From the NCBI RefSeq assembly GCF_019204005.1, contig NZ_JAGSPA010000005.1:1-64000 (forward strand): 64,000 nucleotides of DNA, written 5' to 3'. The translations under genes and the position numbers were made by a program. Positions 5,475-44,241 of the stretch are shown piece by piece. Position 1 is the stretch's first letter. Each line of letters begins with the position of its first letter. Below the pieces are notes generated by a model that ran no database searches, was not told the DNA's origin, and was given only the letters and a program-made list of their open reading frames with translations. The DNA comes from Pacificimonas pallii (GTDB lineage: Bacteria > Pseudomonadota > Alphaproteobacteria > Sphingomonadales > Sphingomonadaceae).

Positions 5475-7652
5475 GTGAGCGACCTTCCCGTCCGCGAGGC
5501 GATCCTTGAATTCGTGAAAGCTGCGCCCGGCCCGGTCGGGCGGCGGGAGATTGCCAAAGCGTTTGGCGTGCGCGGCGATCAGCGGCGCGGGCTGAGGGCG
5601 CTGCTGAATGAAATGGCGGATGAAGGCGTGATCGATTTCGGCCCTAAAAAGTCCGTATATGAAGGCGGCGGGTTGCCGCGCGTTACCGTGCTGCGCGTCA
5701 CTCATGTCGAGGATGGCCGGGCGTTCGCCGCTCCCGAAGGGTGGGACCGGCCTGACCCGCCGCCGCGCATTGTGATCAAGGAACTGCGCGGCGGGCGCGG
5801 CGGTGGCCGTCAGAATGCACGGCAGTCAGCGCTTGGCACTGGCGATCGTGTTCTGGCGCGCATCGAGGAAACCGGGCGCGGACACATTGCGCATGTGATG
5901 AAACCCATCGGCCGGGCCGAAGAACAGCTAATGGGCATCCTGCGCCGCGATGCGAGCGGATGGTATCTGCAGTCGGCGGACAAGCGTGTCCGCGCGATGC
6001 TGCCTGTCGACGATGCGGGCGGTGCCGATGCCGGTGAACTGGTGCTGGCGCGCAAGGAAGGACGCACGGCGCGGGTCACCGAGCGGCTGGGCGATCCCTT
6101 CGCGCCGCGGTCGATCTCGCTGATCGCCATTCATGCAAAAGGCATCCCGGACAGGTTTTCTGAAGATGTGCTCGAAGAGGCCGAAAAGGCCGCCGACCTC
6201 CCCCTTGGCGATGAGCGCGAGGACCTGCGGCACCTGCCCATCATCACCATAGATCCGGAAGATGCGCGCGATCATGACGACGCGATCTGGGTCGAGGCGA
6301 ATGAGGATAAGGATGGCTGGCACGCCGTCGTGGCCATTGCCGACGTATCCTTTTACGTCCGCCCGGGGACGGCCCTGGACCGGGAAGCGCGGAAACGCGG
6401 CAACAGCGTCTATTTTCCCGACAGGGTGGTCCCGATGCTCCCCGAAGTGTTGTCGGCGGGCGCATGTTCGATCGTCGAGAATAAGGACCGGGCCGTCATG
6501 GCCTGTCATCTGGATATTGCGGCGGACGGCAGCCTGCGCGGCTGGCGTTTTTCGCGTGCGGTTATCCGCTGCACAGCGAATATCGCTTATGAACAGGCGG
6601 CGGAATATCCGGGAATCGACGCGATGTGGGAGGCGTGGCGCGCGCTCTATGCCGCGCGGCAGCGCCGCGAGCCGCTGGAACTGGACCTGCCGGAGCGCCG
6701 CGTTGAACTGGATGAAGACGGGCGTGTCGCGCGGATCGCCGTCCGTGAACGCCTGGACGCACATAAGATGGTCGAGGATTACATGATCGCGGCGAATGTC
6801 GCGGCGGCAAAAGCGCTGGAGGCGAAACGCTCTCCGGTCGTTTACCGCGCGCATGAGACACCCAGCGCGGAGAAAATCGATGCCCTGCGGGAATATCTGA
6901 AGACGATCGGCATTCCGTTCGCGAAGGGGCAGGTCGTCAAACCAGCCATGTTCGCACGCGTCCTTGACGGGATCGAGGATGATCTGCTCCGCGAGCAGGT
7001 CAGTATCGAAGTGCTGCGCAGCCAGACGCAGGCCTATTACGGGACCGACAATTTCGGACATTTCGGACTTTCGCTGGCCAGCTATGCCCATTTCACCTCG
7101 CCGATCCGGCGCTATTCCGACACGCTGGTACACCGCGCTCTGGTGCGGTCGTACAAGCTGGGGGCAGGCGGCCTGACCGACGCGGAAATCGGCGAACTCG
7201 ATCAGATCGCCGAACATATCTCCAAAACCGAGCGCCGCGCAATGGAAGCGGAACGCGATACCACGGATCGCTATGTCGCCGCCTATCTTGCCGAGCGGGA
7301 AGGGGAGATGGTGACGGCGCGCGTGACCGGCGTCACGAAGCACGGGCTGTTCGCCACCGTTGACGGTGTCGGCGGCGATGGATTGCTGCCAATGCGTGCG
7401 CTGGGCGTCGACTATTATAATTTCGACGAGACGTCGCGGACCATAAAAGGGGAGCGGACGGGGGAGACGTTCTCGCTGGGCCAGCGGCTCGACCTGAAGC
7501 TGGCGGAGGCCAATCCCGTCACCGGTGGTCTGCGGTTCGAGCGCGCGGATGGTGAGTTCGCGCTGCCACCACGCGGCGGCGGGAAGCCAAGGACGAAGCA
7601 CCGCGGGAAGGCGGGCAAAAAATCAGGCAAGGTGAAGCGCCGCCGCGGCTAG
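5475..7652 (+). CDS. rnr: Ribonuclease R (3'-5' exoribonuclease)
   Basis: Processive 3'-5' exoribonuclease that degrades structured RNA, including rRNA and mRNA decay intermediates. The 725-residue protein has an N-terminal winged-helix-like region, cold-shock-like RNA-binding domains, and the RNB catalytic domain starting with HLPIITIDPEDARDHDDAIWV (about residues 253-273). That segment contains the Asp cluster that binds the catalytic metals. Later RNB signatures are ASYAHFTSPIRRYSD and a C-terminal S1 domain (VTARVTGVTKHGLFATV, about 610-690), followed by a Lys/Arg-rich tail. The start is a GTG at 5475: the frame is closed by a TGA shortly upstream, and the nearby ATG at 5440 is out of frame. 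Members without the GTG-encoded leader would lose the winged helix. It is probably transcribed alone, with the GST-like gene 37 bases downstream possibly co-transcribed. Confidence 0.94.
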   Translation: MSDLPVREAILEFVKAAPGPVGRREIAKAFGVRGDQRRGLRALLNEMADEGVIDFGPKKSVYEGGGLPRVTVLRVTHVEDGRAFAAPEGWDRPDPPPRIVIKELRGGRGGGRQNARQSALGTGDRVLARIEETGRGHIAHVMKPIGRAEEQLMGILRRDASGWYLQSADKRVRAMLPVDDAGGADAGELVLARKEGRTARVTERLGDPFAPRSISLIAIHAKGIPDRFSEDVLEEAEKAADLPLGDEREDLRHLPIITIDPEDARDHDDAIWVEANEDKDGWHAVVAIADVSFYVRPGTALDREARKRGNSVYFPDRVVPMLPEVLSAGACSIVENKDRAVMACHLDIAADGSLRGWRFSRAVIRCTANIAYEQAAEYPGIDAMWEAWRALYAARQRREPLELDLPERRVELDEDGRVARIAVRERLDAHKMVEDYMIAANVAAAKALEAKRSPVVYRAHETPSAEKIDALREYLKTIGIPFAKGQVVKPAMFARVLDGIEDDLLREQVSIEVLRSQTQAYYGTDNFGHFGLSLASYAHFTSPIRRYSDTLVHRALVRSYKLGAGGLTDAEIGELDQIAEHISKTERRAMEAERDTTDRYVAAYLAEREGEMVTARVTGVTKHGLFATVDGVGGDGLLPMRALGVDYYNFDETSRTIKGERTGETFSLGQRLDLKLAEANPVTGGLRFERADGEFALPPRGGGKPRTKHRGKAGKKSGKVKRRRG

Positions 7653-7689
7653 AAAGCGGCCGCGCGCGCCGTTATGACGGTTCCGGCCT

Positions 7690-8358
7690 ATGTGGACGCT
7701 CCATCATTTCACGCTCTGCCCATTCTCCCGGAAAGTACGCATTGTACTGGCCGAGAAAGGCGTGGAGTTCACGCTTGAAGAAGAACTGCCATGGCTGAAA
7801 TCTGACGAACTGATGGATATGAACCGTGCGGGACAGACGCCGGTTCTGTCAGGCGGCAAGGCTGGTCCCATCGCGGATTCCATTGCGATCTGTGAGTATT
7901 TTGAGGAAACCATCGAGAAGGCCCCGCTTCTGGGCAGCGGCGCAGCGGCGCGCGCCGAGGTGCGCAGGCTGACGGCATGGTTCGACCAGAAATTCTATGC
8001 GGAGGTCGTCAATCCGCTGCTGACGGAACGGATGTTCAAGCGGCTGGTCATGCGGGCCTCTCCCGACAGCGCCGCGCTGAGGGTTGCGGCGCGGGCGATG
8101 GCGGTGCATCTCGACTATATCGAATATCTGCTGGGCGACCGCCGCTGGCTGGCGGGATCGACATTCAGCCTCGCGGATATTGCCGCCGCCGCCCAATTAT
8201 CTGTCGCGGACTATCTTGGCGGCATCGACTGGCGCGGTTATCGCGATGCCAAGACCTGGTATGCCACCGTTAAATCGCGGCGCAGTATTCGCGCCATGTT
8301 ACCGGAACGGATGGCGGGGATCAGCCCGCCGATCCATTATGACAAGCTGGATTTCTAA
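7690..8358 (+). CDS. Glutathione S-transferase-fold protein, FzlA-like
   Basis: A 222-residue protein with an N-terminal thioredoxin-like GST domain (TLCPFSRKVRIVLAEKG, with Cys10-Pro-Phe-Ser) and an all-helical C-terminal domain containing the GST folding motif LAGSTFSLADIAAAAQL. In Caulobacter the FtsZ-binding protein FzlA has this fold. The C-terminal end here, PERMAGISPPIHYDKLDF, resembles the conserved tail that FzlA proteins use to contact FtsZ-linked partners, as I recall the family. If so, the protein acts in constriction of the division septum rather than in detoxification. A plain glutathione S-transferase of unknown substrate is the alternative. The gene ends 3 bases before the convergent membrane-protein gene. 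Confidence 0.8.
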   Translation: MWTLHHFTLCPFSRKVRIVLAEKGVEFTLEEELPWLKSDELMDMNRAGQTPVLSGGKAGPIADSIAICEYFEETIEKAPLLGSGAAARAEVRRLTAWFDQKFYAEVVNPLLTERMFKRLVMRASPDSAALRVAARAMAVHLDYIEYLLGDRRWLAGSTFSLADIAAAAQLSVADYLGGIDWRGYRDAKTWYATVKSRRSIRAMLPERMAGISPPIHYDKLDF

Positions 8359-8361
8359 CGC

Positions 8362-9075
8362 CTAGCTGAACGTATCGGCGATGGGCCTGCCAACGAGCAT
8401 TTCATAGGCTTTCGCCGCGAACACCGCCGCCAGGATGCCGGTGCCGGAGGCGACGACGCCCGCGGCAATCGCCTCCAGAAGACCGGCATCCCCGATTTTC
8501 GGATCACCCAGTCCCAGGATTCCGTCCAGCGCGGACAGGGCGACGACCGGCATCCCCGCCAAGAGAACCACGATCATAAGCATGGCGAACAGCCCCAGGA
8601 TCTTGAGCGTGTGTCCGTCGGTCATCGCCCAGCTGCGTTTCATGATGTCGATTGTCCTGCCCCGCTCCTCGATAAGCACCGGTATGACCAGCCACAGCCG
8701 CGCGGCGATGATAAGGCCGGGCACGATCAGCGCGAAAATGCCGATGATGGTGGCGATCCCCGACAGGAGTGCCAGTATGAACGCGGCAGGAAAGAGCTTC
8801 CCGGCCCGCCTGATCGCCATTCCGGTCGGGACTTCTGGCGATAGCGACTTGATCGTGATCGCCAGCGTTCCCATCACCGCGACGATGTTCGTCAGGCCGC
8901 CCCAGCGTATCGCGGGATTGTCGAGCAGTTCAGCATCCGGGGGGACATTGACCAGCAGGCTGACCGCAAGGCTTGGCAGGAAATAGAAGGCGGCGGCCGG
9001 AAGCAGATAATCGCCCAGTCGTAGGCGAAGGTCTGTCTGCACGGCGGCCCAGAGGCGATTCAGATTGAAGTCCAT
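8362..9075 (-). CDS. Multi-pass membrane protein, YciC / GPDPase-membrane-domain-like
   Basis: A predicted inner-membrane protein of 237 residues. Hydrophobic segments are visible at about residues 22-42 (YLLPAAAFYFLPSLAVSLLV), 60-80, 95-130 (FILALLSGIATIIGIFALIV), 160-185 (LKILGLFAMLMIVVLLAGM) and 205-225. The pattern PGLIIAARLWLVIPVLIEERG followed by MKRSWAMTDGH resembles the membrane-protein families UPF0259/YciC and GPDPase_memb, whose biochemical role is unknown. I start it at the ATG at 9075 (MDFNLNRLW). The open frame continues upstream to 9489, but that extension reads through the antisense of the glycine riboswitch and has no protein character. It is divergent from the gcv operon and convergent with the GST-like gene. 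Confidence 0.75.
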   Translation of the reverse strand: MDFNLNRLWAAVQTDLRLRLGDYLLPAAAFYFLPSLAVSLLVNVPPDAELLDNPAIRWGGLTNIVAVMGTLAITIKSLSPEVPTGMAIRRAGKLFPAAFILALLSGIATIIGIFALIVPGLIIAARLWLVIPVLIEERGRTIDIMKRSWAMTDGHTLKILGLFAMLMIVVLLAGMPVVALSALDGILGLGDPKIGDAGLLEAIAAGVVASGTGILAAVFAAKAYEMLVGRPIADTFS

Positions 9076-31770: not shown

Positions 31771-34700
31771 CTAGAACTCGTAACGAACACCTAAAACAAT
31801 GCGCCAGGTAGAAGAGCTGACCGTTACGTCATTGTCGTCATCCGGATTGAAATCGGAGATGATGTAACGGCCTTGGTCGTCAACACCGCCATCGACAATG
31901 TCGACCAGCTCTTCACGTGAGCGCAGCTCGTTCCACTCACCGTTCAGGAGATTCAGAAAGTTATCGACATCGGCAAACACTTCGATGCGGTCGTTGCCGC
32001 CAAAGAGAGTACCAGGGCCGGGCAGTTCCTGCGCCAGACGCAGGTCGAGGTCGAAATACCAGTCGTTCCGGCAGCTATTGGCGCGGATCGACGTTCCGCG
32101 AGCATCCTTGGCGCAGCTCAGTTTGTCGATATAGCTGTTGAACATCATTTCAGTCTCGGCCGCCGTTTGGACAACGGTATCTACACCGTCGATCTCACGG
32201 ATGGTGTCGACATATACGACATTCGTATCGCCCTGACCTGTCGGGATGTAAAGTAGCGCATTGTCCTCACCTGAAGATGCGTCGGCAAAAACGCCGCCAC
32301 CATCGAATGTCAGGCTGTACGGACGACCCGAACGTGCTTGGAAGAAAAGGCCGAGCTCAGTTGCATAGTCTTCGAAGAACTGCTCTTCAAACCGGGCAGC
32401 GAACGTAATGTTGTGCCGCGTTTCATAGGTTGAGGTGCGCGTTGCTGGGTTCTGACGGTCGAAAGCCGCTGTTCGGTCGAAGCCGGAAGTTGCCGTCGAG
32501 TTGTCGTTCGTGCGGCGCTCTTCGGCGTCAGTGAAGGCATAGCCAAAGTTCATCGTAACGCTACCGCCCTCTGTGAAAACACCGCGGTCAAAGTTCTTTT
32601 GAAGGATGAACGATACCGCATGGCTGTCGAAACCACCGGCATTGGTCAGCTGAATTTCGTCGTCGCGGCGTGTGCCGAAGCAATCCGCCGTGACATTATT
32701 ATAGACCGGCGATGTGCCACCGTCACCGACAAGGTTGGCGTTGCAGCCGTCGTTCAGCGGGTCAATCGGGCGCAGGATCGGACGACCGTCAACGGTAAAG
32801 CCGCCAATGCCACGGGAAGGATCGGGAATCTGCGATAGATCGACAAAGTTATACGGGTCGCGGAAACGGCTGTAGATATAGTCTATTTTCGCGGTCCAGT
32901 CGTCAAAGAACCCGCCATTTCCCGAACCGAAGTCGGTCGAAAAGCCGATATTGGCACGCAGCACTGTTGGAATTTTGATGTTCTGATTGGTCGACTGTGT
33001 GTCGGCGGAGCCGGCGCTTGCACGTTCGGATGCATTCTCGACAGCACACTGCGGGAAGCCTGTAAACTGACCTCCTGCCAATACATTGAAGCTGCCATCG
33101 TCATCCTGCAGGCCTGCGCAATTGCCACTGAACGTGCTACCGCTTGCCGTTGAGAAGCCATTGTTGGAAAACGCATTGGAGAACCAAACCGTTGGATCGC
33201 CGCCAGCGAAAAGGCCAACACCGCCGCTGACCTGCGAGTTGTACATAAACCCATCATTGTTGAAATCATAGGTAGCTGCAAGACGTGGCAGGAACAGTGG
33301 CTCTATGCGCGAGAAAGGCGTTGCATTCGAGATGCCATAGCGCTCGCGGAACTGCGGATTCTGGCGCGGCGCGTCTCCATCATACAGATCAACACGGGCA
33401 CCGGCGAGGATACTCAATTGGTCGGTGACCTGCCAATCGTCCTGCGCGTAGAAAGTGTAGATCTGGCGTTTGAACGTTGCGGCTGCGTCATTGATGTCGC
33501 CGCTGGGCGATGCGTTGATGGTGCCGCCACCAATCAAGCCACCAACGAGATTTTCGCCAACGTCGCCGAAGACGGACGAGAAAAAGCCCGGTGCGACGCG
33601 GCCCGCTGCGAAATCGTCGAGATTTCGGAAGTACAGCGTGCCGGTTGCATTGATCGCAAACAGGTTGAAGACCTTGAGGCCATTATATTCGGCGCCGACT
33701 GTAAAATTGTGATCGCCAGCGTTCAAGCGCGCGGCGACCTTGAACTGGTCAACCGTAGTGTCGAGCTGGTTCGCGGAGCGGAAGATACCTGGGCCATCGG
33801 ATAAGAATCCTGCCTCGCCATCGGGGCCGACAACGCCGACTGCCAGACGGACGCGCGGGTCGGCGGATTGAGCTTCGCCGCCACCTACAGGCCCCTGAAT
33901 ATCACCAACCTCGGAGCGTGAAAAGCGAACTTCGGTAGAGAAATTATCAGTCCAGTTCGAGAACAGGCGCGCCGAGTAATAGTCCGACACGGTCCCTTCG
34001 ACCTCGAAGCTGTTCAGGCCGGTGTAATTATTGTCGTCGAAATCGGTTTCGACATTTTCTTCCTCGAGGCGTTGATAGGTCAATTCCAAGCGGTGGTCGT
34101 CGGTCAAATACGCATCAAGGCGACCGAAATAGCGAACACTCGATTCTGGCAGGGCGCGCGGGGCACCGCCACTGTCGCGACCATAGGAGGAGGACAGGAT
34201 GCTCGAGAAGCGATCAAACTGATTCTGCGTCACAAAGTCCGCATCATTTGGGAAGCCGCCACCGTCGGGGCCAAAGTCTTGGCTATCACCAAGGTCCGTC
34301 TCCTCATAGCCGCCGAAAAAGAACAAGCGGTCCTTGATGATCGGCCCGGAGAACGTGGCACCCCAGCGCTTTTCTTGGAAGTCCGCCGGAATGAATTCCT
34401 GACCACCTGCTGTATCGCCGCGGAGACCGCCGTCGCGATAGGTAAAGAAGGCTGAGCCGTGGAAATCATTTTCGCCAGACTTTGTGACGACATTGATCGC
34501 ACAGCCTGTGAAGGAGCCATATTCAACGTCGAACGGTGCGAACTCAACGGTCGTCTCGCGCACGGCATCAAACGGAATCGGCAGTGCATTGCGAGCCGCA
34601 AATGGCGTGCCATTCAAACCAAATACGTCGGCCTGCGCAATGCCGTCGACGGTAAAGGCGTTCGTGCGGTCATTGCCGCCGAGGCAAGAAATGCGGTCGA

Positions 34701-35232
34701 CTTCATTGTCACGGTCTAGGCTTACGCGCGGGTCAATGCGAATAAGGTCGCGAATGTCTCGGGAGATACTGGGCAGTGCTTCAAGCGTCTCTATGCCGAA
34801 GGACTGGCCGGGGCCAACGGCCAACTGAGTCTGCCGGGCACGCGTACCGGTTACCACAATGGTGTCTTCGGCGACTTCGGAGGATGTAGCCGCCAGTGAG
34901 AAGGCAAGTTCGGTTGCACCCGAGAGTGTTGTGTTGATGTTTTCGAGCGTCTGACCTTGGAAGCCGGATGCTGTCGCTGTTACCGTATATGGACCACCGG
35001 TTGTCAGATTGCCTGCATTGAAGCGGCCCTGACTGCCGGTCGTCAACGTGCGCATGGAGCCAGTACGCTCGTCGCGAACCGTGACGGTGGCACCGGCGAC
35101 GGCCGCGCCGTCTTCGCCTGTAACAGTACCTTCGATGGACGACGTAATTTGCTGCGCATGGACTGGCGCGGCGATCATGGCGGCCGGTGCGACAAGCGCG
35201 GTGGCGGCAAGCAGTAATTTCAGGTGACGCAT
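31771..35232 (-). CDS. Oar-like TonB-dependent receptor with carboxypeptidase-regulatory-like domain
   Basis: A large outer-membrane receptor of 1153 residues. A signal peptide (MRHLKLLLAATALVAPAAMIAAPVHAQ) is followed by a carboxypeptidase-regulatory-like beta-sandwich (SSIEGTVTGEDGAAVAGATVTVRDERTGSMRT to about residue 110), a TonB box region DTIVVTGTRARQTQ, the plug (EALPSISRDIRDLIRIDPRVSLD and DRTNAFTVDGIAQADVFGLNG) and a very long barrel ending with WRIVLGVRYEF. The domain order is that of Oar-type receptors; substrates are not known. Codon use is less GC-rich than in flanking genes, like the receptor at the left edge. It is monocistronic with a strong terminator. A perfect 18-base palindrome lies upstream. 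Confidence 0.95.
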   Translation of the reverse strand: MRHLKLLLAATALVAPAAMIAAPVHAQQITSSIEGTVTGEDGAAVAGATVTVRDERTGSMRTLTTGSQGRFNAGNLTTGGPYTVTATASGFQGQTLENINTTLSGATELAFSLAATSSEVAEDTIVVTGTRARQTQLAVGPGQSFGIETLEALPSISRDIRDLIRIDPRVSLDRDNEVDRISCLGGNDRTNAFTVDGIAQADVFGLNGTPFAARNALPIPFDAVRETTVEFAPFDVEYGSFTGCAINVVTKSGENDFHGSAFFTYRDGGLRGDTAGGQEFIPADFQEKRWGATFSGPIIKDRLFFFGGYEETDLGDSQDFGPDGGGFPNDADFVTQNQFDRFSSILSSSYGRDSGGAPRALPESSVRYFGRLDAYLTDDHRLELTYQRLEEENVETDFDDNNYTGLNSFEVEGTVSDYYSARLFSNWTDNFSTEVRFSRSEVGDIQGPVGGGEAQSADPRVRLAVGVVGPDGEAGFLSDGPGIFRSANQLDTTVDQFKVAARLNAGDHNFTVGAEYNGLKVFNLFAINATGTLYFRNLDDFAAGRVAPGFFSSVFGDVGENLVGGLIGGGTINASPSGDINDAAATFKRQIYTFYAQDDWQVTDQLSILAGARVDLYDGDAPRQNPQFRERYGISNATPFSRIEPLFLPRLAATYDFNNDGFMYNSQVSGGVGLFAGGDPTVWFSNAFSNNGFSTASGSTFSGNCAGLQDDDGSFNVLAGGQFTGFPQCAVENASERASAGSADTQSTNQNIKIPTVLRANIGFSTDFGSGNGGFFDDWTAKIDYIYSRFRDPYNFVDLSQIPDPSRGIGGFTVDGRPILRPIDPLNDGCNANLVGDGGTSPVYNNVTADCFGTRRDDEIQLTNAGGFDSHAVSFILQKNFDRGVFTEGGSVTMNFGYAFTDAEERRTNDNSTATSGFDRTAAFDRQNPATRTSTYETRHNITFAARFEEQFFEDYATELGLFFQARSGRPYSLTFDGGGVFADASSGEDNALLYIPTGQGDTNVVYVDTIREIDGVDTVVQTAAETEMMFNSYIDKLSCAKDARGTSIRANSCRNDWYFDLDLRLAQELPGPGTLFGGNDRIEVFADVDNFLNLLNGEWNELRSREELVDIVDGGVDDQGRYIISDFNPDDDNDVTVSSSTWRIVLGVRYEF

Positions 35233-35901: not shown

Positions 35902-36429
35902 TCAGTCCAGAAGGGCTGCCGCGGCCTCGATCGTCTTGCGGAAGTTGCGCGGGATCATTGATCCGACAATCATCTCGATTGCGGAAGTTGCGGCCCCGCG
36001 CCAGGCCACGGGAATTCTTGACAGCGCGGCGGGGTCGACATCGAATTCGCCCGTGAAGACGGCCTTTGTGCCGCGGCCGCCCATTGCTGTTTCGAAGCGT
36101 GTCGTCCCCGCACACCGAATTGCGCCAGGCATGAAAAAAGGCTCGATCCGCCACGTGCATTGGGTCAGGTCCGCTGTCCACAGGGCGTGATCGTTCCAGC
36201 CGAGCCTGTCGCCCGGGATCGCCTGTCTGACCGCGCTGGGGAGTTTCGGGTCCACCCGCCATTCATTGACGAGCCGCAGGCAGCCGTCCGCAATCTCCTC
36301 CCGATCCGTGACCCTGATGCTCGTGACATCGGCAAGCGATGGTGCGATCTCCGGCAGCCGGTCGCGAACAGCGGTAGCAATGTCCCGCAGAGGTTTTCTG
36401 ACGCCGACGAGCGTGCTGAATGGTTTCAC
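35902..36429 (-). CDS. SRPBCC/START-like protein, last gene of the uncharacterised operon
   Basis: A 175-residue soluble protein. The order of an N-terminal helix (KPLRDIATAVRDRLPEIAPSL), strands DVTSIRVTDREEIADGCLRLVNEWRVDP, a strand with WTADLTQCTWRIEPFFMPGAIRCAGTTRFETAM, FTGEFDVDP and a long C-terminal helix (ATSAIEMIVGSMIPRNFRKTIEAAAALL) fits the lipid-binding SRPBCC/START fold. This is a fold impression, not a motif match, and the function is unknown. It overlaps the epimerase gene by four bases (ATGA) and therefore belongs to the long minus-strand operon. Confidence 0.75.
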   Translation of the reverse strand: MKPFSTLVGVRKPLRDIATAVRDRLPEIAPSLADVTSIRVTDREEIADGCLRLVNEWRVDPKLPSAVRQAIPGDRLGWNDHALWTADLTQCTWRIEPFFMPGAIRCAGTTRFETAMGGRGTKAVFTGEFDVDPAALSRIPVAWRGAATSAIEMIVGSMIPRNFRKTIEAAAALLD

Positions 36430-37511
36430 ACTGCCTCCCGTTCCAGCGTGCGCTCTGCTGCATGCCGCGCCGCGCGCGCCGCATGGACCTTCCTGTCGAG
36501 GCGCATGTTGATGCGCGTCTCACGCGATACATGCGGTCCGGCTGATAGCCAGGCGAGCGCTCCTGCCAGGGCGTCCCGCGCGCTTTGCGGGCGGTAACCA
36601 AGCGCGGCCGCCGCCCCATGATCATACCAGTAATACCGCCCGACCATGGCGGCTTGTGTCCGCGTCGCGAGCGGCGCCCTGCCAGTGACGAGCGCGCGCA
36701 CCTCTTCCGCGGCGGCAATGATCTGGCAGGTGAGGGCGCTCGCCATGTGCCGCGGCGGTTCGACACCTGCCAGCTGTGCGATCATCGTGTGGATCGCAAG
36801 CCAGGTCAGATTTTCCGAACCAAGTATATAGCGTCCGCCCGCCGCGCCGCGCTCCGCGAGCAGCAGGTGCCCGTCGGCGACGTCCTGAACGGCGACGATA
36901 TTGCAGCCGCCCGCCCAGCTCAGCTTCAGCGGATCGGCAAGATAGCTTGTGATGACGCCGTTGCTCGGCCCCAGCGCGCTGCCATAGGCGCCGACGCTCA
37001 TGGTGGGCAGAGCGAACACGACCTCCACACCGGCCTTTCCTGCGAAATCGGCGGCGGCTATTTCCTGCGCGATCTTCGCGCCGACATAGCCTGGCTGTCC
37101 GGCATCGTCTGGATCCGCGACGTCTCCTTCATTGCGCACGATCGGCTTAAGCCCTGCGCCCAGCGTGACGGACGAGGACGTTATGACGACACGCCGAACG
37201 CCCGCCTCCTGCGCGGCCCTGATGACATTGCGTGTGCCGTCCACGGCCGTTGCCTGCATGGCGGCGTTGTCATGGCCCCAATAGCTGAAATGAACGGCCG
37301 TGTGGAAAACGACGTCGCAGCCGGACATGGCCCGGGCGAGCGACTCGATATCCGTGACATCGCCGATTGAGAGAGGTGCAGGTAAATCGGAAATGTAGCT
37401 GACATCGGAGGTCGCCCGCACCAGACCAAGAGCCTGGTGCCCCTTGCGGATAAGCGACCGCAGAAGATTGGCGCCGATCAGGCCGTTCGCACCTGTTACC
37501 AGCGCTTTCAC
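36426..37511 (-). CDS. NAD(P)-dependent epimerase/reductase (extended SDR)
   Basis: A 361-residue extended short-chain dehydrogenase/reductase. The cofactor motif is TGANGLIGANLLRSLI (residues 6-21), followed by GCDVVFHTAVHFSYWG and VVITSSSVTLGAG. The catalytic YVGAK supplies the YxxxK pair. Family relatives include HpnA-type hopanoid-associated epimerases, 3-beta-hydroxysteroid dehydrogenases and dihydroflavonol reductases; I cannot choose among them. The Arg-rich C-terminal extension (NMRLDRKVHAARAARHAAERTL) is unusual. It is coupled to genes on both sides by ATGA overlaps and so is part of the uncharacterised operon. Confidence 0.9.
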   Translation of the reverse strand: MKALVTGANGLIGANLLRSLIRKGHQALGLVRATSDVSYISDLPAPLSIGDVTDIESLARAMSGCDVVFHTAVHFSYWGHDNAAMQATAVDGTRNVIRAAQEAGVRRVVITSSSVTLGAGLKPIVRNEGDVADPDDAGQPGYVGAKIAQEIAAADFAGKAGVEVVFALPTMSVGAYGSALGPSNGVITSYLADPLKLSWAGGCNIVAVQDVADGHLLLAERGAAGGRYILGSENLTWLAIHTMIAQLAGVEPPRHMASALTCQIIAAAEEVRALVTGRAPLATRTQAAMVGRYYWYDHGAAAALGYRPQSARDALAGALAWLSAGPHVSRETRINMRLDRKVHAARAARHAAERTLEREAV

Positions 37512-39610
37512 GACCGTATCCCAAGATCGACAGCCACTGCGCGCGTCATGTCGTTGAGCAGGCCACTGACGGCGCCGCGGGTCATCCTGACATCGGCTTC
37601 GCCCCCCGCCCGCCCACTAAAATGGCGCAGACCGTCAGCGTCGATGCGCGTCGGCACCGGCTGATCCTTGTGGTTCCCGTCTACGCGGCTGCGCAATGCC
37701 TCGATCCAGTCGTCAGGAAGGTCGTCACGCAGCCGTTCGGCAATGGCGGCAAGGCTGTCCACAGGAAGCGGCTCTTCGGCGTCAATGCGCGCGGCAGGCT
37801 TGCCGATACGCACATCGCGCCCCTCCAGAACGGCCTCCAGATTGGCAAATGTGCGGCTCGCGAAACGGCGGTACGCGTCGGTGACCAGCCAGTCGTGCAG
37901 CGCCGGAAACCGGCTGAGATCGATGGCCTCAACCAAAGCGGGCTGCCGGAAGTGCTGCCGCGCGAAGATCGTGACGACGGTGTCATCGCCCACGCCAGCA
38001 AATTCGACCAGCCCATCGTCCGCGAGCGCGGAGTCATTTTCACTGAACAGTGTCTGCCAGGCCATGGACTGGCGTCCGGCACCATATCGGATCGTTTCGA
38101 TCTTCGTCACATCAATGACGCTGCCGCCAAGCAGTGCCGTGAAATTTGGTTGCGGCAGATACAGATTGCGTTCCAGCTGCCGCGTCACACGGCCTTCTGT
38201 ATCGCGTGCGACGGTCAGGGCCTCGCCGCCAATATAGTCGTTCATGAACTGGATGGTGCGATTGACCGGGACGGCAGCCGCGAAGACGCCGAGCGGCAGC
38301 GGGAACCTGCGCACGCAATCGAACAGGACCGCATCGTCGATCATCCGCCAGCGCAAACCCTCCTCATCCGCGATGCATCCGCGCAGCAGCGCGCGCTGCC
38401 GCGCGATGGCGGGCGCGATTTTCCGCCATTCGGCGTCATCGATATTCTCGGCGCGTACGTTCAGCGCCGCCGGGCTGCGAATGATGGCATCCTTCGCGAA
38501 CATGGTCTGCCACGCCGTTCGCGCCTCCGCGAGTTGAGCGAGGATGAGCCCGAGCAGCGCGTAGGTGCCGCGCCCGGGCGCCGCGTCCGCCGATAAAAAC
38601 TGCCGCAGCCAGCCGTTCAGACGCGCATTTGCCTCATTCCGAAACGGAAACAGCGCTTCGTCCACCGCTTGCAGGACCGGAATTGCGCTGCGATCGAGGG
38701 CGGCGTCTTTTTGCCGTCGCCGCGCGGCATCCCGCGCCCTTGGTGACACGTTTATCCAGTCGGCATAGGGACGCAGCGATCCGATCATCGCATCACCGTC
38801 ATCGCCTGGCACCTGCCACAGCCGAGAGACGTTTGGATCCAGACCCATTTTCAGCGCGCCAACCTGATCCGCCTGATAGGGGTCGCGCGCGACGATGATC
38901 GTGTGCGTGTCCAGCGGTAGCGGCTGGCTGCATCCGCCCTCACCGTGGCTGCTGACACAGCCATCGATGAGGGCGAGATCGACGGGCGCGGCGGCGAGGA
39001 GGGCGCGCACGACCGCGCCCGGATTTCGCTGCCGCACGTAGAGGCTGTCCTTGTCACGGCCGGGCAATACCGACAGCAGCGTACCCAGTGTCAGCGCAAA
39101 GCCATCCGCCACGTCCGTACGATTGGCGGCGAAGACGATCCGGAACGCCGCGTTCTGCCAAATCGCGGATAGCGGCACGCCGCAAAGCACGCCGTCCTCC
39201 GGGAACGGCGACTCCTCCGCATCTTCCGACAGATCGACAATATCATAGTCCCGGCCCGCGGGCGTTACGTAGCGATAGCCGAGCAGGTCTGCGCGCATGA
39301 ACACGTCACGATTTTCCGCCCACATAGCATCGCTGCTCTCCGTCGTGCCGATGACGACGGAGTCTGCGCCGAGGGCGTAGAGATGATCGGCCAGATGTTC
39401 GACCAGCGCCGGGTCCGTCATGGCAGGCGAGCGTTTCGCAAATCCGGCCATAGCAGGCACGATCACGACCTGGCGATTGCTGTCTTTTGCCTTGAGGGCC
39501 GCGCGGACCAGCCGATCGAGCGAGATGGCCGCCGCCGCCCGGTCGAGAAGATGCGCAGGCTGCGCCGCCGCATCTGTCACCACGGCAATTGCGGGCGGCG
39601 GGGTCGTCAA
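37508..39610 (-). CDS. DUF362-like protein with SRPBCC-like C-terminal region (700 residues)
   Basis: Uncharacterised. The first about 290 residues resemble DUF362: RQVVIVPAMAGFAKRSPAMTDPALVEHLADHLYALGADSVVIGTTESSDA, DYDIVDLSED, and DLALIDGCVSSHGEGGC. No ferredoxin-type Cys cluster follows, unlike many DUF362 proteins. The middle is helical. Residues from about 450 to 590 (TRQLERNLYLPQPNFTALLGGSVIDVTKIETIRYGAG, then AWQTLFSEND and DDTVVTIFARQHF) look like the curved sheet of an SRPBCC/START domain. No signal peptide or membrane segment is visible, so it is probably cytoplasmic. Both ends overlap neighbours by four bases. A role in modifying or carrying a hydrophobic compound is inference from fold and operon. 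Confidence 0.8.
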   Translation of the reverse strand: MTTPPPAIAVVTDAAAQPAHLLDRAAAAISLDRLVRAALKAKDSNRQVVIVPAMAGFAKRSPAMTDPALVEHLADHLYALGADSVVIGTTESSDAMWAENRDVFMRADLLGYRYVTPAGRDYDIVDLSEDAEESPFPEDGVLCGVPLSAIWQNAAFRIVFAANRTDVADGFALTLGTLLSVLPGRDKDSLYVRQRNPGAVVRALLAAAPVDLALIDGCVSSHGEGGCSQPLPLDTHTIIVARDPYQADQVGALKMGLDPNVSRLWQVPGDDGDAMIGSLRPYADWINVSPRARDAARRRQKDAALDRSAIPVLQAVDEALFPFRNEANARLNGWLRQFLSADAAPGRGTYALLGLILAQLAEARTAWQTMFAKDAIIRSPAALNVRAENIDDAEWRKIAPAIARQRALLRGCIADEEGLRWRMIDDAVLFDCVRRFPLPLGVFAAAVPVNRTIQFMNDYIGGEALTVARDTEGRVTRQLERNLYLPQPNFTALLGGSVIDVTKIETIRYGAGRQSMAWQTLFSENDSALADDGLVEFAGVGDDTVVTIFARQHFRQPALVEAIDLSRFPALHDWLVTDAYRRFASRTFANLEAVLEGRDVRIGKPAARIDAEEPLPVDSLAAIAERLRDDLPDDWIEALRSRVDGNHKDQPVPTRIDADGLRHFSGRAGGEADVRMTRGAVSGLLNDMTRAVAVDLGIRS

Positions 39611-40245
39611 GCGGCGTCTACGGCCAGGTTCAGGCGCAGTACCATGTCGTCAAAACCGTCCACGACGGCCTGCGCGGCGTAAGTCTCGCCAGCGTTCACT
39701 GTCCGGCCGTCCAATTTTACCGAGACGGCGATCTTCCGCTCGCTACCGGGCGGCAATGTGCAGGTCGGCGGATCAAACGAGGGCGTCAGCTTGGTCACGC
39801 GGGCGTCGGTGGAAAAGGCGGTTGCCGCAAAGCCGATGGTGACTTCGGCGTCACGCGGGTTTTCAATCAACATGTCTGCCGTCGCGGTTTCGCCGATCTT
39901 TCCGGACAGCATCAGGTCATGGACCGCACGCTGGCTGCCGGGCGATGTGCGGGCGCCCTTCGCGGAAAGCCCCGCCATCCGCGCGACGCCGCTTGCATAG
40001 TCCGAGGCCAGGTCAAGCAGTTCTCCGGGATATTTCACCGCTTCTTCCGCCGTCAGCCTAAGAGCGGCGCTCGCCGTCTTGCGGACGTCTGTGCGGCCCG
40101 CGCCATAATCGGAGAGGATTTGCCGATAGCCGTTCAGCGCGCCAACGCGGCGGCCCGCCCAGCGGCGGGCGAGTTCGGAGAGCAGCTCACTGACGTCTGC
40201 GATGGTTTCGGCAGCGCCTGGCGCTTCCTGCGCACGCTTTTCCAT
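39607..40245 (-). CDS. Uncharacterised protein: helical N-terminus plus beta-sandwich
   Basis: A 212-residue protein with no signal peptide. The first about 100 residues are strongly helical and amphipathic (IADVSELLSELARRWAGRRVGALNGYRQILSDYG, then AVKYPGELLDLASDYASGVARM), somewhat like granule-associated phasins. The rest (residues 115-212) reads as an Ig-like beta-sandwich: GETATADMLIENPRDAEVTIGFAATAFS, TLPPGSERKIAVSVKLDGRTVNAGETYAAQAVVDGFDDMVLRLNLAV. I use the ATG at 40245, which forms TGATG with the previous stop codon; a longer frame starts at 40287. The next protein in the operon has the same helical-plus-sandwich layout. Function unknown. Confidence 0.78.
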   Translation of the reverse strand: MEKRAQEAPGAAETIADVSELLSELARRWAGRRVGALNGYRQILSDYGAGRTDVRKTASAALRLTAEEAVKYPGELLDLASDYASGVARMAGLSAKGARTSPGSQRAVHDLMLSGKIGETATADMLIENPRDAEVTIGFAATAFSTDARVTKLTPSFDPPTCTLPPGSERKIAVSVKLDGRTVNAGETYAAQAVVDGFDDMVLRLNLAVDAA

Positions 40246-40895
40246 CAGCAGCAGGCCTGGCAGCAGTCGACCCGGTATGCGCCGCATTCGCAGGGCAGCA
40301 CGGCAACGGCGATCCGAATGGGCCGCACATCGCAGCCCTTCATACGCAGGTCGGCATAGCAGACCACACAGCTTTCCACGTCCTCGGGAAGTCTGGCCGT
40401 CGTTCCGGTCGAATCATTGAGGCTTGCGATGCCCGCAATGCTGACGACCAGCATCAGCTTGTGCTCGCCGCAGGGTTCGATGGTGAACTTCAACGGGTCG
40501 GCAATGCGTCCTTCGATCTTCAGCTTGCTATCGCCGCAAGCCCAGTCGGACAGTTGCACCTCAATGTCTCTTTTGCGGCGCCATTTGTTCTCGATGATAA
40601 TCGGAATGACGCGCTGTTCGCCAACCCTGGCCTCGATCACCAGGTCGCTGTCAGCGACGCAGCAGGTGCATCCGCAATCGTCGGTTTGGCAGTCGTCTTC
40701 ACAGGCACAGCCATTTGCATTTCTGGTCCGCCTTGTTGTGCCCGTCCTACGCGCGATCATGTCCTCGACGCCGCCGCGCCAGCTGTCAAAGGCGTCTGTC
40801 CATGGCCGCATCACGTCGCGCGCCAGGGTTTCTATCGCCGCCACCGGATCTGCATTTGCGCTGATGGGTGACTGTCTTATGATTTGGGTCTGCAT
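40245..40895 (-). CDS. Uncharacterised cysteine-rich protein (18 Cys in 216 residues)
   Basis: A protein with three parts. Residues 15-50 are an amphipathic helix (DPVAAIETLARDVMRPWTDAFDSWRGGVEDMIARR). Residues 63-79 hold seven cysteines (C-x-C-x3-C-x4-C-x-C-x-CC). The rest is a beta-sandwich (DLVIEARVGEQRVIPIIIENKWRRKRDIEVQLSDW, KFTIEPCGEHKLMLVVSI), closed by another cysteine-rich tail (C-x2-C at 176/179, C188, then C-x-C-x6-CC-x2-CC at 202-216). With no signal peptide the protein should be in the reducing cytoplasm, so metal binding is more likely than disulfides. I use the ATG at 40895; the open frame continues upstream to 41042 inside the preceding gene. Function unknown. Confidence 0.78.
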   Translation of the reverse strand: MQTQIIRQSPISANADPVAAIETLARDVMRPWTDAFDSWRGGVEDMIARRTGTTRRTRNANGCACEDDCQTDDCGCTCCVADSDLVIEARVGEQRVIPIIIENKWRRKRDIEVQLSDWACGDSKLKIEGRIADPLKFTIEPCGEHKLMLVVSIAGIASLNDSTGTTARLPEDVESCVVCYADLRMKGCDVRPIRIAVAVLPCECGAYRVDCCQACC

Positions 40896-40899
40896 GGGA

Positions 40900-41718
40900 T
40901 CAGCTCCTCTTCCTTTTTCCGCCGCCGGAGGTAGCGGGTTTGCGTAGATCAGGCTTGATGGCAGTGATGACGGCGATCTCGATTTCCGCGGCGTAGACGG
41001 GGACAAAAGCGCGGTACCGGCGAACCGGATCCAGCTTCGCATCCCAACTTGCCGAAAGGCGCGCGCAATGGGTCTGCCCCGGCGACAGGGTGAAGGGCCC
41101 CGCGGGCATGTCGATCGTGATAAGGCCGATTTCGGTCAGGACACGCGGCGCCCTGCTAAGCGCAGCGGTCAGGACGGCAAGAGCGGAATCAGCGCTTGAC
41201 TGGTCCGCCGCCAGTGGGTCTTCCCGGCCAAGCGGATAAGCACCTCTGACATCGACCGGCAGCGAAACATTGCCGCGGTTTTCAAAGCTCACCATGGCCT
41301 CGCTGATGCGGGACCGGCCGGTGTCGATCACGACGGGGGCAGGGCGAATCCGTAGGGATACGTCCTCGACGATACCGAAGGACACGTCGCGCGCCAGGCC
41401 TGCGATGTCTATCGATGCCACATAGTCGCCCGGCGGCATGTTCCGGTCGAGCCTTAGCGACACATCACCGGTCGCTATGTTGCCATTTCCTCTCAGGTTC
41501 AGCGGTGCCGCGCTCGCGGCGTAGCTGTTGGCAGTCTTGGCTTCGGCTTTGTTGCTAACGGGTTTCACGCTCTTCACGCGCACCGGTTTGGCTACATTGA
41601 TGTCACCGATTGTCTTCATTTTCATCGTGACGGGAAAGTTCAATGCCGCGCGCCGCGAAGATGTCGAGAGCGACGTCTTTTCGGGCCAGTCGATCAGTTC
41701 GAGGTCGTCAGTTGCCAT
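40900..41718 (-). CDS. Uncharacterised protein with repeated Ig-like strands
   Basis: A 272-residue protein of unknown function. After a basic, disordered-looking leader (VTMKMKTIGDINVAKPVRVKSVKPVSNKAEAKT) come beta-rich segments: GDVSLRLDRNMPPGDYVASIDIAGLARDVSFGIVEDVSLRIRPA, then SEAMVSFENRGNVSLPVDVRGAYPLG, then GPFTLSPGQTHCARLSASWDAKLDPVRRYRAFVPVYAAEIEIAV. The pattern suggests two Ig-like sandwiches. The C-terminus is basic (GGGKRKRS). No signal peptide is seen. It lies three bases after the 158-residue gene and four before the cysteine-rich one, so it is clearly in the same operon. Confidence 0.75.
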   Translation of the reverse strand: MATDDLELIDWPEKTSLSTSSRRAALNFPVTMKMKTIGDINVAKPVRVKSVKPVSNKAEAKTANSYAASAAPLNLRGNGNIATGDVSLRLDRNMPPGDYVASIDIAGLARDVSFGIVEDVSLRIRPAPVVIDTGRSRISEAMVSFENRGNVSLPVDVRGAYPLGREDPLAADQSSADSALAVLTAALSRAPRVLTEIGLITIDMPAGPFTLSPGQTHCARLSASWDAKLDPVRRYRAFVPVYAAEIEIAVITAIKPDLRKPATSGGGKRKRS

Positions 41719-41720
41719 GG

Positions 41721-42197
41721 CTATTTACCCAGCCTGACGCGCAGCCCGCCGGATTTCTGTTTTGGCTTGGCGAGCTTTATGAACGGGGCCTTTGGCAGGT
41801 CGGAAATATCAATGCGTGCCTCTCCCTCCAGCGTGACGCCGACGACTTCCACACCGAACAGGCGCAGCCCCACATGCTGGCGGCTGGGCAGGCAGATGCG
41901 GGTCGGCGGCAGCGGCGCCAGCGACAGACGCAGACACTGGTCAAGAACCACCGGTTGCAGGTCGACATTCGCGTTTACGTCCGACGTTGCGGTGATGTCC
42001 GACGCGCTGTCCAGACGGAGCTTGCTGTCGGTCTGGATCATATCGGGAATGCGCAGCGTCAGCTCGGATTCGACTTCCGCCTCCGTCCTGATCGGGTCGG
42101 GGAATCGGATGCGGACATCGTCGAGGCCGGTGATGTCGACATTTACCGGACCGCTATTCACCGTAATCGGATCATAATTTACATCGACATCCGCCAT
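41721..42197 (-). CDS. Uncharacterised beta-rich protein (158 residues)
   Basis: A protein of unknown function. It is dominated by alternating strands (MADVDVNYDPITVNSGPVNVDITGLDDVRIRF, EVESELTLRIPDMIQTDSKLRLDSASDITATSDVNANVDLQPVVLDQ) and then CLRLSLAPLPPTRICLPSRQHVGLRLFGVEVVGVTLEGEARIDISDLP. The many DVxV repeats suggest a beta-solenoid or stacked sandwich. There is no signal peptide. A strong ribosome binding site (GGAGGG) sits five bases before the ATG, so this may be the first strongly translated gene of the operon. It begins 65 bases after the PAP2 gene. Confidence 0.72.
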   Translation of the reverse strand: MADVDVNYDPITVNSGPVNVDITGLDDVRIRFPDPIRTEAEVESELTLRIPDMIQTDSKLRLDSASDITATSDVNANVDLQPVVLDQCLRLSLAPLPPTRICLPSRQHVGLRLFGVEVVGVTLEGEARIDISDLPKAPFIKLAKPKQKSGGLRVRLGK

Positions 42198-42262
42198 ATC
42201 TTCCCTCCGGAAACGTACATTTGGTTCAGTTTCGTTTCTTGTCTTTTCCGACGTCCGGCCGG

Positions 42263-42865
42263 TCAGCCATAGGTCACCTGCAAGGCAGCGCTGGGCAGCG
42301 CCACCATCAGGCCCAGCAGGCTTCCCGCGATCAAGTCAGTCGGATAATGATGTCCCGCTGCCAGACGCGCCCAGCCGACCATCAGCAGAAGCGCGGCCAT
42401 CGCCGGTAACAGCGTCGGCACGGCGACGCACAGCGGCGTCAGGACCGCGACGCAGCTCATCATGTGCCCGCTTGGAAAGCTGAAATCGTCGAGGGGAGGC
42501 AGCAAGGACGGGATCGATGGGTCGTACCTGAATGGTCTGCGCCGACAATAACGGCGCTTGATCAGTGGATAAATCAAGTGACCGAATGCCATGGCGACGG
42601 CCGCGCCGGCTACCGCGCCCGGCATGCCGTACCATAGCCAGAAAGCCGCGCCGATAATCAGATACAAGCTGCCATTTGCGAGCCGATTGGCGGCAAGCGC
42701 GAACATACGAATGGCTGGCTGTCGCATCTGCCGCGTGAACCAGCGTACGGTATTGATTTCCCTGGCGTTACCTTCAGCCAGAATATGCACTACCGGAGCG
42801 CGCGCCGTGCGTGCATGCGCACGCATTCGGCCAGCAAGCTCGGACGATTCAGTCAATCTTGTCAT
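42263..42865 (-). CDS. PAP2-family lipid phosphatase
   Basis: A 200-residue integral membrane phosphatase. The three PAP2 motifs are present: KRRYCRRRP (Lys103 to Pro111), PSGH (131-134) and R167-x5-H173-x3-D177 (WARLAAGHHYPTD). Hydrophobic helices lie at about 65-100 and 135-195. Members dephosphorylate phosphatidic acid, undecaprenyl pyrophosphate or similar lipids on the periplasmic side. It is the first gene of the uncharacterised minus-strand group, and a lipid substrate would match the SRPBCC-like and SDR genes downstream (inference). Possible separate transcription cannot be excluded because of the 65-base gap. Confidence 0.88.
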   Translation of the reverse strand: MTRLTESSELAGRMRAHARTARAPVVHILAEGNAREINTVRWFTRQMRQPAIRMFALAANRLANGSLYLIIGAAFWLWYGMPGAVAGAAVAMAFGHLIYPLIKRRYCRRRPFRYDPSIPSLLPPLDDFSFPSGHMMSCVAVLTPLCVAVPTLLPAMAALLLMVGWARLAAGHHYPTDLIAGSLLGLMVALPSAALQVTYG

Positions 42866-43020: not shown

Positions 43021-44241
43021 ATGCGTGATTATCCACTTGTTTTCTACGTCGCTCTCGACGGGAACGGAGTGAATGGTCTTGAGGGTATGGCGGGCATGTG
43101 CATGTTCCTGTTCAATCCCGCAGACGACAGCTACGCGTGGAAAATCCTGTACTATGACGGCATTGCGGCCGGGCATGCCTGCGCGATCAATCCTTCCGCA
43201 ACGACCGGATTTCTGGGCAATGCCGGACAGCATTTGCTGTTTTTCGATCCGGAGACGCTGGAGGAGCAGGCCCGTATATCGACATTGCGTTTCGAAACGC
43301 CGCGCACATCACTTCATGGCAGCACGCATCTTGCCTGGCTGAACGATGACGAATTCATCACCGCCATAGGTGCGCATTTTTACCGCTTTTCCCTTGGCAG
43401 ACTTGACGAGCCCGCGCAGCTGGAACCGCACGGGGTGAAGTTGCCGCACGCCATGAAGCTGACCCCGTCCGGGCGCTATCTTTGCTATGGCTCAATGGAC
43501 AGCCCTGCGGACGGTCGGCGCGGCGAAGCCTGCCATGTCGGCGTCCGTGATATGGAAACGGGCGAGATCCGCATCGTGCCGCTGCCTGCGACGTGCTGGC
43601 ATGTCCTGCCGCACAAAAGGAAGGAACTGTTTTACGCCATATCTTTCCGCGTCGCTCCGCAGGACCATCAGGATTATCACGAATGGGGCATGGCCTATCT
43701 GAAGGAATATGTATTTGAAATCGACCCGGCGGCGGGAAAGGTCGTGCGGCACTGGGCGACCGGGCGGGAAACCCCCGCGCACATCAATTCGGACATCACC
43801 ATGTCGGACAGCGAACTGATCTTCTGCAATGGCGGCAGTCAGTCGGTGATCTTCCTGGATCTTGACGGGCTGGCGCGGTTCCGGATGATCGACGAGAAGG
43901 CCAGTCTGGCAGACCTCAGCCAGCGCCCGCGAGAGGTTGTGACACAGGTCTGCGATACGTTCGTCCGAGGCAATATATTCAGCAATTCCCAGCATTTTCT
44001 TGGCGCGCTGCGCGTCAGCCGGGGGTCGCTTCTCGATAGTGTCTATGGCTGCCAATTGTCGGCGGATCAGAGCCTGCTGTTCACGGCCAATCGCGGAATG
44101 AACCATATCAGCATCTACAATTATCCGGACAACAGCCTGCGTCTTCGCGTCCCCATGCCGGATCTGCAGGAATTCGTCCCGTCGCTATCGGCAAAGGCTG
44201 ATCCGCGGCTTGGCTTCCACCATGCCGCGCTGATCGGCTGA
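43021..44241 (+). CDS. Uncharacterised histidine-rich beta-propeller-like protein
   Basis: A 406-residue protein with no signal peptide and repeated four-strand-like blocks of a beta-propeller: DSYAWKILYYDG, GQHLLFFDPETLEEQARI, LAWLNDDEFITAIGAHFYRFSLG, GRYLCYGSMDSP, CHVGVRDMETGEIRIVPLP, KEYVFEIDPAAGKVVRHWATG, ELIFCNGGSQSVIFLDLDG, QSLLFTANRGMNHISIYNYPDN. Many His residues sit at blade edges (AGHACAINP, LHGSTHLAW, LPHAMKL, CWHVLPHK, DHQDYHEWGMAYL, TPAHINSDI, SNSQHF, GFHHAAL). This could form a metal site as in carotenoid oxygenases, though I see no firm family match. It is divergent to the uncharacterised operon across an A/T-rich gap (42866-43020) that probably holds both promoters. Function unknown. 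Confidence 0.75.
   Translation: MRDYPLVFYVALDGNGVNGLEGMAGMCMFLFNPADDSYAWKILYYDGIAAGHACAINPSATTGFLGNAGQHLLFFDPETLEEQARISTLRFETPRTSLHGSTHLAWLNDDEFITAIGAHFYRFSLGRLDEPAQLEPHGVKLPHAMKLTPSGRYLCYGSMDSPADGRRGEACHVGVRDMETGEIRIVPLPATCWHVLPHKRKELFYAISFRVAPQDHQDYHEWGMAYLKEYVFEIDPAAGKVVRHWATGRETPAHINSDITMSDSELIFCNGGSQSVIFLDLDGLARFRMIDEKASLADLSQRPREVVTQVCDTFVRGNIFSNSQHFLGALRVSRGSLLDSVYGCQLSADQSLLFTANRGMNHISIYNYPDNSLRLRVPMPDLQEFVPSLSAKADPRLGFHHAALIG

Follow-up and report, generated by a model that had tools for sequence, protein, structure and literature searches.

An operon of eight genes was found in the window, i.e. the 64,000-nucleotide stretch of Pacificimonas pallii DNA analysed here (contig NZ_JAGSPA010000005.1, positions 1 to 64,000). 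Considered as a whole, it is a probable specialised-lipid cluster, of a kind already known, that carries an undescribed four-protein block. Gene order and sequence comparisons with a second genus indicate that the four genes of this block, B to E, are a conserved unit and not a chance grouping.

The eight genes occupy positions 35902-42865, head to tail on the minus strand, and are clearly readable in the sequence. They are transcribed in the order A to H. Gene A (42263-42865) codes for a PAP2-superfamily membrane phosphatase. It is followed by four genes for family-less proteins: B (41721-42197; 158 residues, strand-rich), which opens the conserved block, C (40900-41718; 272 residues), the Cys-rich D (40245-40895; 216 residues) and E (39607-40245; 212 residues). 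The last three genes code for a DUF362 protein of 700 residues (F, 37508-39610), an extended short-chain dehydrogenase/reductase (SDR; G, 36426-37511) and an SRPBCC/START-like protein of 175 residues (H, 35902-36429). A gap of 65 nt separates A from B, and spacing is near zero across the following seven genes, with 2 nt between B and C and 4 nt between C and D, a TGATG overlap between D and E, a 4-nt TTGA overlap between E and F, and GTGA overlaps at the F-G and G-H junctions. The tight packing described in the sequence-only reading and the TGATG overlap at D-E are thus confirmed, whereas ATGA overlaps do not predominate as it had stated. The start of D is most likely the ATG at 40895, behind a purine-rich stretch, rather than that at 41042; the longer, mechanically delimited ORF would overlap C by 143 nt. 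Altogether, this spacing gives the picture of a single operon that would be translationally coupled.

The flanks are ordinary. The other strand carries a cytidine deaminase gene, and there are genes for a TonB-type receptor, a nitroreductase and a branched-chain 2-oxoacid dehydrogenase. The receptor gene (31774-35232, minus) follows the operon in the same direction and codes for a protein with an N-terminal carboxypeptidase-regulatory-like domain. One close copy of the nitroreductase was found within the genus, in other surroundings. A family-less protein of 406 residues is encoded at 43021-44241 (plus strand) and transcribed divergently from the operon. It is cytoplasmic and propeller-like by eye, has no significant match in Pfam or NCBIfam, and has no copy in three other genomes of the genus or in plasmids. 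It is a possible accessory, and we do not claim it as a member of the operon.

Searches of Pfam, NCBIfam, PHROGs and PADLOC gave no match for any of the proteins B to E, in agreement with the view that four proteins of the operon belong to no recognised family. None of the operon proteins matches a PADLOC model of known anti-phage defence systems, and no signal peptide was seen in B to E. Sequence searches of the PDB with E and C yielded no significant match. C comprises two probable beta-sandwich segments and a basic C-terminal tail, GGGKRKRS.

A single other relative of E was detected among 301 genomes of the order, in Allopontixanthobacter sediminis (NZ_WTYL01000001.1), which belongs to the same family but to another genus. 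At this locus (L003), four genes have the same order and strand arrangement as in the window: B' (8525-8986), C' (7644-8519), D' (6922-7623) and E' (6056-6913). The proteins of the two genomes are about 23-24% identical. Similarity is significant for E and E' (phmmer E-value 9.2e-13, shuffle z 14.0), C and C' (3.2e-11, z 13.7) and B and B' (0.0025, z 6.3). The alignment score of D with D' is not significant; the similarity of these two proteins is one of position between C and E, of richness in Cys residues and of architecture, with an amphipathic N-terminal helix in both.

As the B-C-D-E order is kept at ~24% identity, a chance grouping is not expected. One might regard the operon as a fortuitous assemblage of unrelated genes, since the full eight-gene order occurs in one genome only and the closest sampled relatives do not have it. 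This is hardly credible given the independent retention of B-C-D-E in another genus and the near-zero spacing of seven genes in the window. For B to E we found neither ordinary families nor a gene order confined to close relatives, the combination that the sequence-only reading had tied to chance, and on comparative grounds a chance grouping of these four genes is already refuted. Gene-order conservation, singled out by the same reading as a key check, thus holds for the block but not for the complete operon.

The block is very rare within the genomes covered, with two instances. No third copy was found in ~1,990 genome look-ups (many of them repeated), 72,556 plasmids, 50,697 phages or viral contigs. 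Likewise, searches with E in overlapping samples from the order (301 genomes), the class (385), the family (301) and the phylum (299), and with C in 391 order genomes that overlap the other samples, revealed no third locus. Profile searches for relatives of B to E were confined to Pseudomonadota. A scan of 85,462 species for E patterns also found no third locus, using strict patterns of eight to nine residues that distant members would escape. A class-level match to E (E-value 7.7e-4; genome G659, locus L006) was rejected, as it lies antisense within or adjoining a 612-residue frame readable as an elongation-factor-type GTPase, in unrelated surroundings. The block was not found in other species of either genus. 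This patchy distribution fits horizontal transfer. Our literature search found no published description of such a system, as the sequence-only reading had anticipated.

We then turn to the features of the four proteins. A structure model of E, built from a two-sequence alignment, showed a helical N-terminal half predicted with low confidence and a confident C-terminal sandwich (residues ~106-212). The latter is a seven-strand immunoglobulin-type sandwich, with pLDDT values of 75-90 over most of residues 111-210. The best match of this model in a Foldseek search of the PDB was a VAP-A/MSP domain (E-value 5.5e-7), and HYDIN/ASH and PapD-like domains were also found. Viral fold matches were set aside as generic sandwiches. 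E shows no sequence-level membership of an MSP or PapD family in Pfam. A shuffle comparison revealed that the C-terminal half of D resembles E (z 7.0), and the sequences suggest that both C and D hold sandwiches similar to that of E. The pLDDT of the C model is 37, and C' gave a sub-threshold hint of NPCBM_assoc/NEW3 (E-value 0.2). MSP/VAP and PapD-like folds are used in protein-protein assembly, and MSP/VAP domains are cytoplasmic.

These folds also raise the question of an envelope or surface assembly, in which the PapD-like sandwiches would be chaperones or subunits of a surface structure. PapD and Csu-type chaperones do appear among the fold matches of E. Nevertheless, they are outranked by the cytoplasmic MSP/VAP domains, B to E show no signal peptide, and neither locus harbours an usher, pilin or secretion gene. 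We consider an envelope role very unlikely.

Two of the proteins were thought to combine an amphipathic helical N-terminus with a C-terminal beta-sandwich. For E, the model supports both the helices and the sandwich, but the amphipathicity of the N-terminal helix is not clear, being reached by 65 of 500 shuffled sequences (72 of 500 for E'). For D, this architecture is read from sequence, and the amphipathicity exceeds shuffled expectation, with 16 of 500 shuffles reaching it (2 of 500 for D'). Basic tails end C, C' and E', that of E' being rich in Ala, Lys and Arg.

The abundance of Cys residues in D is pronounced, with 18 in 216 residues, i.e. a fraction of 0.083, whereas 61 long open frames average 0.017; D' has 10. 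One explanation is metal or redox handling, with D binding an Fe-S cluster, Zn or Cu, the DUF362 protein F acting as a redox or maturation partner, and B to E providing the redox scaffold on which a lipid is modified. Besides the Cys residues, it can draw on an additional ispH gene near the A. sediminis block, IspH being an Fe-S enzyme, and on the copper protein PcoC as the sole, sub-threshold PDB match to the E profile (E-value 0.5). That match is, however, not significant and probably reflects a shared sandwich fold. Furthermore, no metal-binding family was matched and F is without a counterpart in A. sediminis, making this explanation unlikely.

The enzyme-type genes of the operon were assigned with various degrees of support. 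Gene A matches Pfam PF01569 (E-value 2.2e-19, 70 bits, cut-off 27.2), and its translation contains intact K-x6-RP (KRRYCRRRP), PSGH and R-x5-H-x3-D (RLAAGHHYPTD) motifs. Its match to the NCBIfam model of the undecaprenyl-diphosphatase SepP is weak (41.5 bits, under the cut-off). Residues 48-252 of F correspond to DUF362 (PF04015; E-value 1.5e-12, 48 bits), consistent with the earlier assignment, and are followed by ~450 residues without family match; the SRPBCC-like region postulated within this protein is not backed by any Pfam match. F has no match in PDB sequences and no relative among 299 phylum genomes or in plasmids.

The identification of G as an extended SDR is borne out by intact cofactor (TGxxGxxG; TGANGLIG) and catalytic (YxxxK; YVGAK) motifs and by matches to the Epimerase and 3Beta_HSD families of Pfam. 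Its best NCBIfam model is HpnA (TIGR03466; E-value 3.9e-70, 236.3 bits, below the 367.65 cut-off), with further matches to the sterol demethylase protein SdmB (7.5e-34) and the long-chain ketone reductase OleD (2.1e-20). For H, an SRPBCC-like nature is weakly supported by a match to DUF2505 (E-value 0.0017, 18.9 bits, below the 26.9 cut-off). Relatives of H are found in Nostoc (29.8% identity, E-value 7e-12) and in Picosynechococcus plasmids, in unrelated surroundings. Similarly, the plasmid neighbourhoods of F, G and H are unrelated to the operon.

Sequence analysis of the A. sediminis locus indicates that the enzyme partners of the block differ between the two genomes and are of lipid or isoprenoid type in both. 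Downstream of E' come two small family-less proteins, followed by DUF2804-type and SCP2-like proteins, both at sub-threshold Pfam scores. The small proteins (142 and 65 residues; L003:5441-6059) have no relative in the window operon. Up to the contig end (L003:1116-4009), genes for IspH, a DAGAT-type acyltransferase and a polyprenyl synthase lie in a row, convergent with the block. This ispH is a second copy in the genome, and the polyprenyl synthase a third. Upstream of B' (L003:9466-12857) are genes for AhpD/peroxidase-related, thiolase/lipid-transfer-type, DUF35-like and CoA-transferase proteins, which resemble a degradation cluster. The handling of a lipid or isoprenoid, previously proposed from the PAP2, SDR and START-like proteins of the window, thus gains independent strength from the extra ispH and polyprenyl synthase genes beside the A. 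sediminis block, as a link by neighbourhood. The isoprenoid tie is suggestive, the convergent genes being neighbours of the block rather than members of its operon. In total, P. pallii has a single ispH gene and two prenyl synthase genes, none of them inside the operon, which leaves room for another lipid as the substrate.

We propose that the operon is a specialised-lipid cluster distributed by horizontal transfer, in which B to E would form a cytoplasmic structural assembly serving a lipid or isoprenoid pathway. We infer that beta-sandwich domains hold these proteins together; the domain of E is MSP/PapD-like, and so probably are those of C and D. The proteins would be seated at the inner membrane, or at the surface of a small hydrophobic body, by the amphipathic N-terminal helix of D and perhaps by that of E. 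At the membrane, PAP2 might take the diphosphate or phosphate off a prenyl or lipid phosphate, and the SDR might oxidize or reduce the alcohol or ketone so formed. Binding or passing on the hydrophobic intermediate could fall to H, and perhaps to F, while the B-E assembly would hold product and enzymes together. The Cys-rich D might bind a metal or cross-link the assembly. B to E are best read as a putative scaffold or coat that surrounds a hydrophobic isoprenoid product.

We regard this assembly model as possible, and as equally likely a plain specialised-metabolite cluster devoid of coat or particle. B to E would then be soluble accessory proteins or enzyme subunits of one lipid pathway, as parts of a metabolon or as lipid-binding or carrier proteins. 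Indeed, PAP2, SDR, SRPBCC, SCP2-like, DUF2804, acyltransferase and prenyl synthase proteins are usual components of lipid or terpenoid clusters, and the assembly of B to E is putative. Nevertheless, four linked, family-less proteins with no recognised catalytic motif are kept while the enzymes change, and E has a modelled sandwich, so that they look more structural than catalytic.

A bolder, unlikely version of the assembly model is that B to E build a bacterial body not yet described, as its structural proteins. This would be an isoprenoid or lipid compartment, protein-coated or scaffolded, whose MSP/PapD-like sandwich proteins have no relation to phasins, encapsulins or microcompartments, and the block would spread as an exchangeable unit fitted with different lipid enzymes.

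If B to E assemble on a hydrophobic product, they would represent a bacterial structure that holds lipids or isoprenoids and is built from proteins unrelated to described coats or shells. The block could then be used as a movable scaffold when terpenoid pathways are engineered. The modest reading already provides four new families of proteins whose tie to isoprenoid supply can be tested; this tie is based on the duplicated ispH and prenyl synthase genes adjoining the block in A. sediminis, a culturable type strain.

With respect to known systems, G belongs to the same group as the extended SDRs of the HpnA, SdmB and OleD types, which act in hopanoid, sterol and long-chain lipid pathways, but it scores under every equivalog cut-off, and the operon contains no hopanoid or sterol genes. 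The C-terminal domain of E has its fold in common with the immunoglobulin-fold domains of the MSP/VAP, ASH and PapD-like types; the likeness is one of predicted fold, with identities of only ~9-20%.

Family 2B encapsulins have a polyprenyl transferase as cargo (PMC8346489). The assembly proposed here would likewise be tied to a prenyl synthase, in A. sediminis only. The best NCBIfam model of that synthase is a family 2 encapsulin cargo model, NF041169. However, its score of 183.7 bits is well under the cut-off of 450, and B to E match no shell protein family of the HK97 or cNMP-binding type. More generally, the operon proteins match no encapsulin or capsid family in Pfam, NCBIfam or PHROGs. 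We therefore rejected an encapsulin identity on the basis of the cargo score and the missing HK97-type match.

The other comparison is with the phasins PhaF and PhaP that coat polyhydroxyalkanoate (PHA) granules. Like them, D and D' would be cytoplasmic; their N-terminal helices are more amphipathic than those of most shuffled sequences, and a role at a hydrophobic surface is proposed. The basic, Ala/Lys/Arg-rich tail of E' recalls PhaF, a phasin with a histone-like tail (PMC5658603). Phasins, however, have no beta-sandwich domain like that modelled in E. B to E and B' to E' show no match to the phasin families PF05597, PF09602, PF09650 and PF09361 (Pfam, E-values up to 1), and no PHA synthase is seen in the operon. 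The comparison is weaker for E because the helices of E and E' are not clearly more amphipathic than those of shuffled sequences. Neither phasins nor encapsulins by sequence, B to E may at most work in the manner of a phasin layer.
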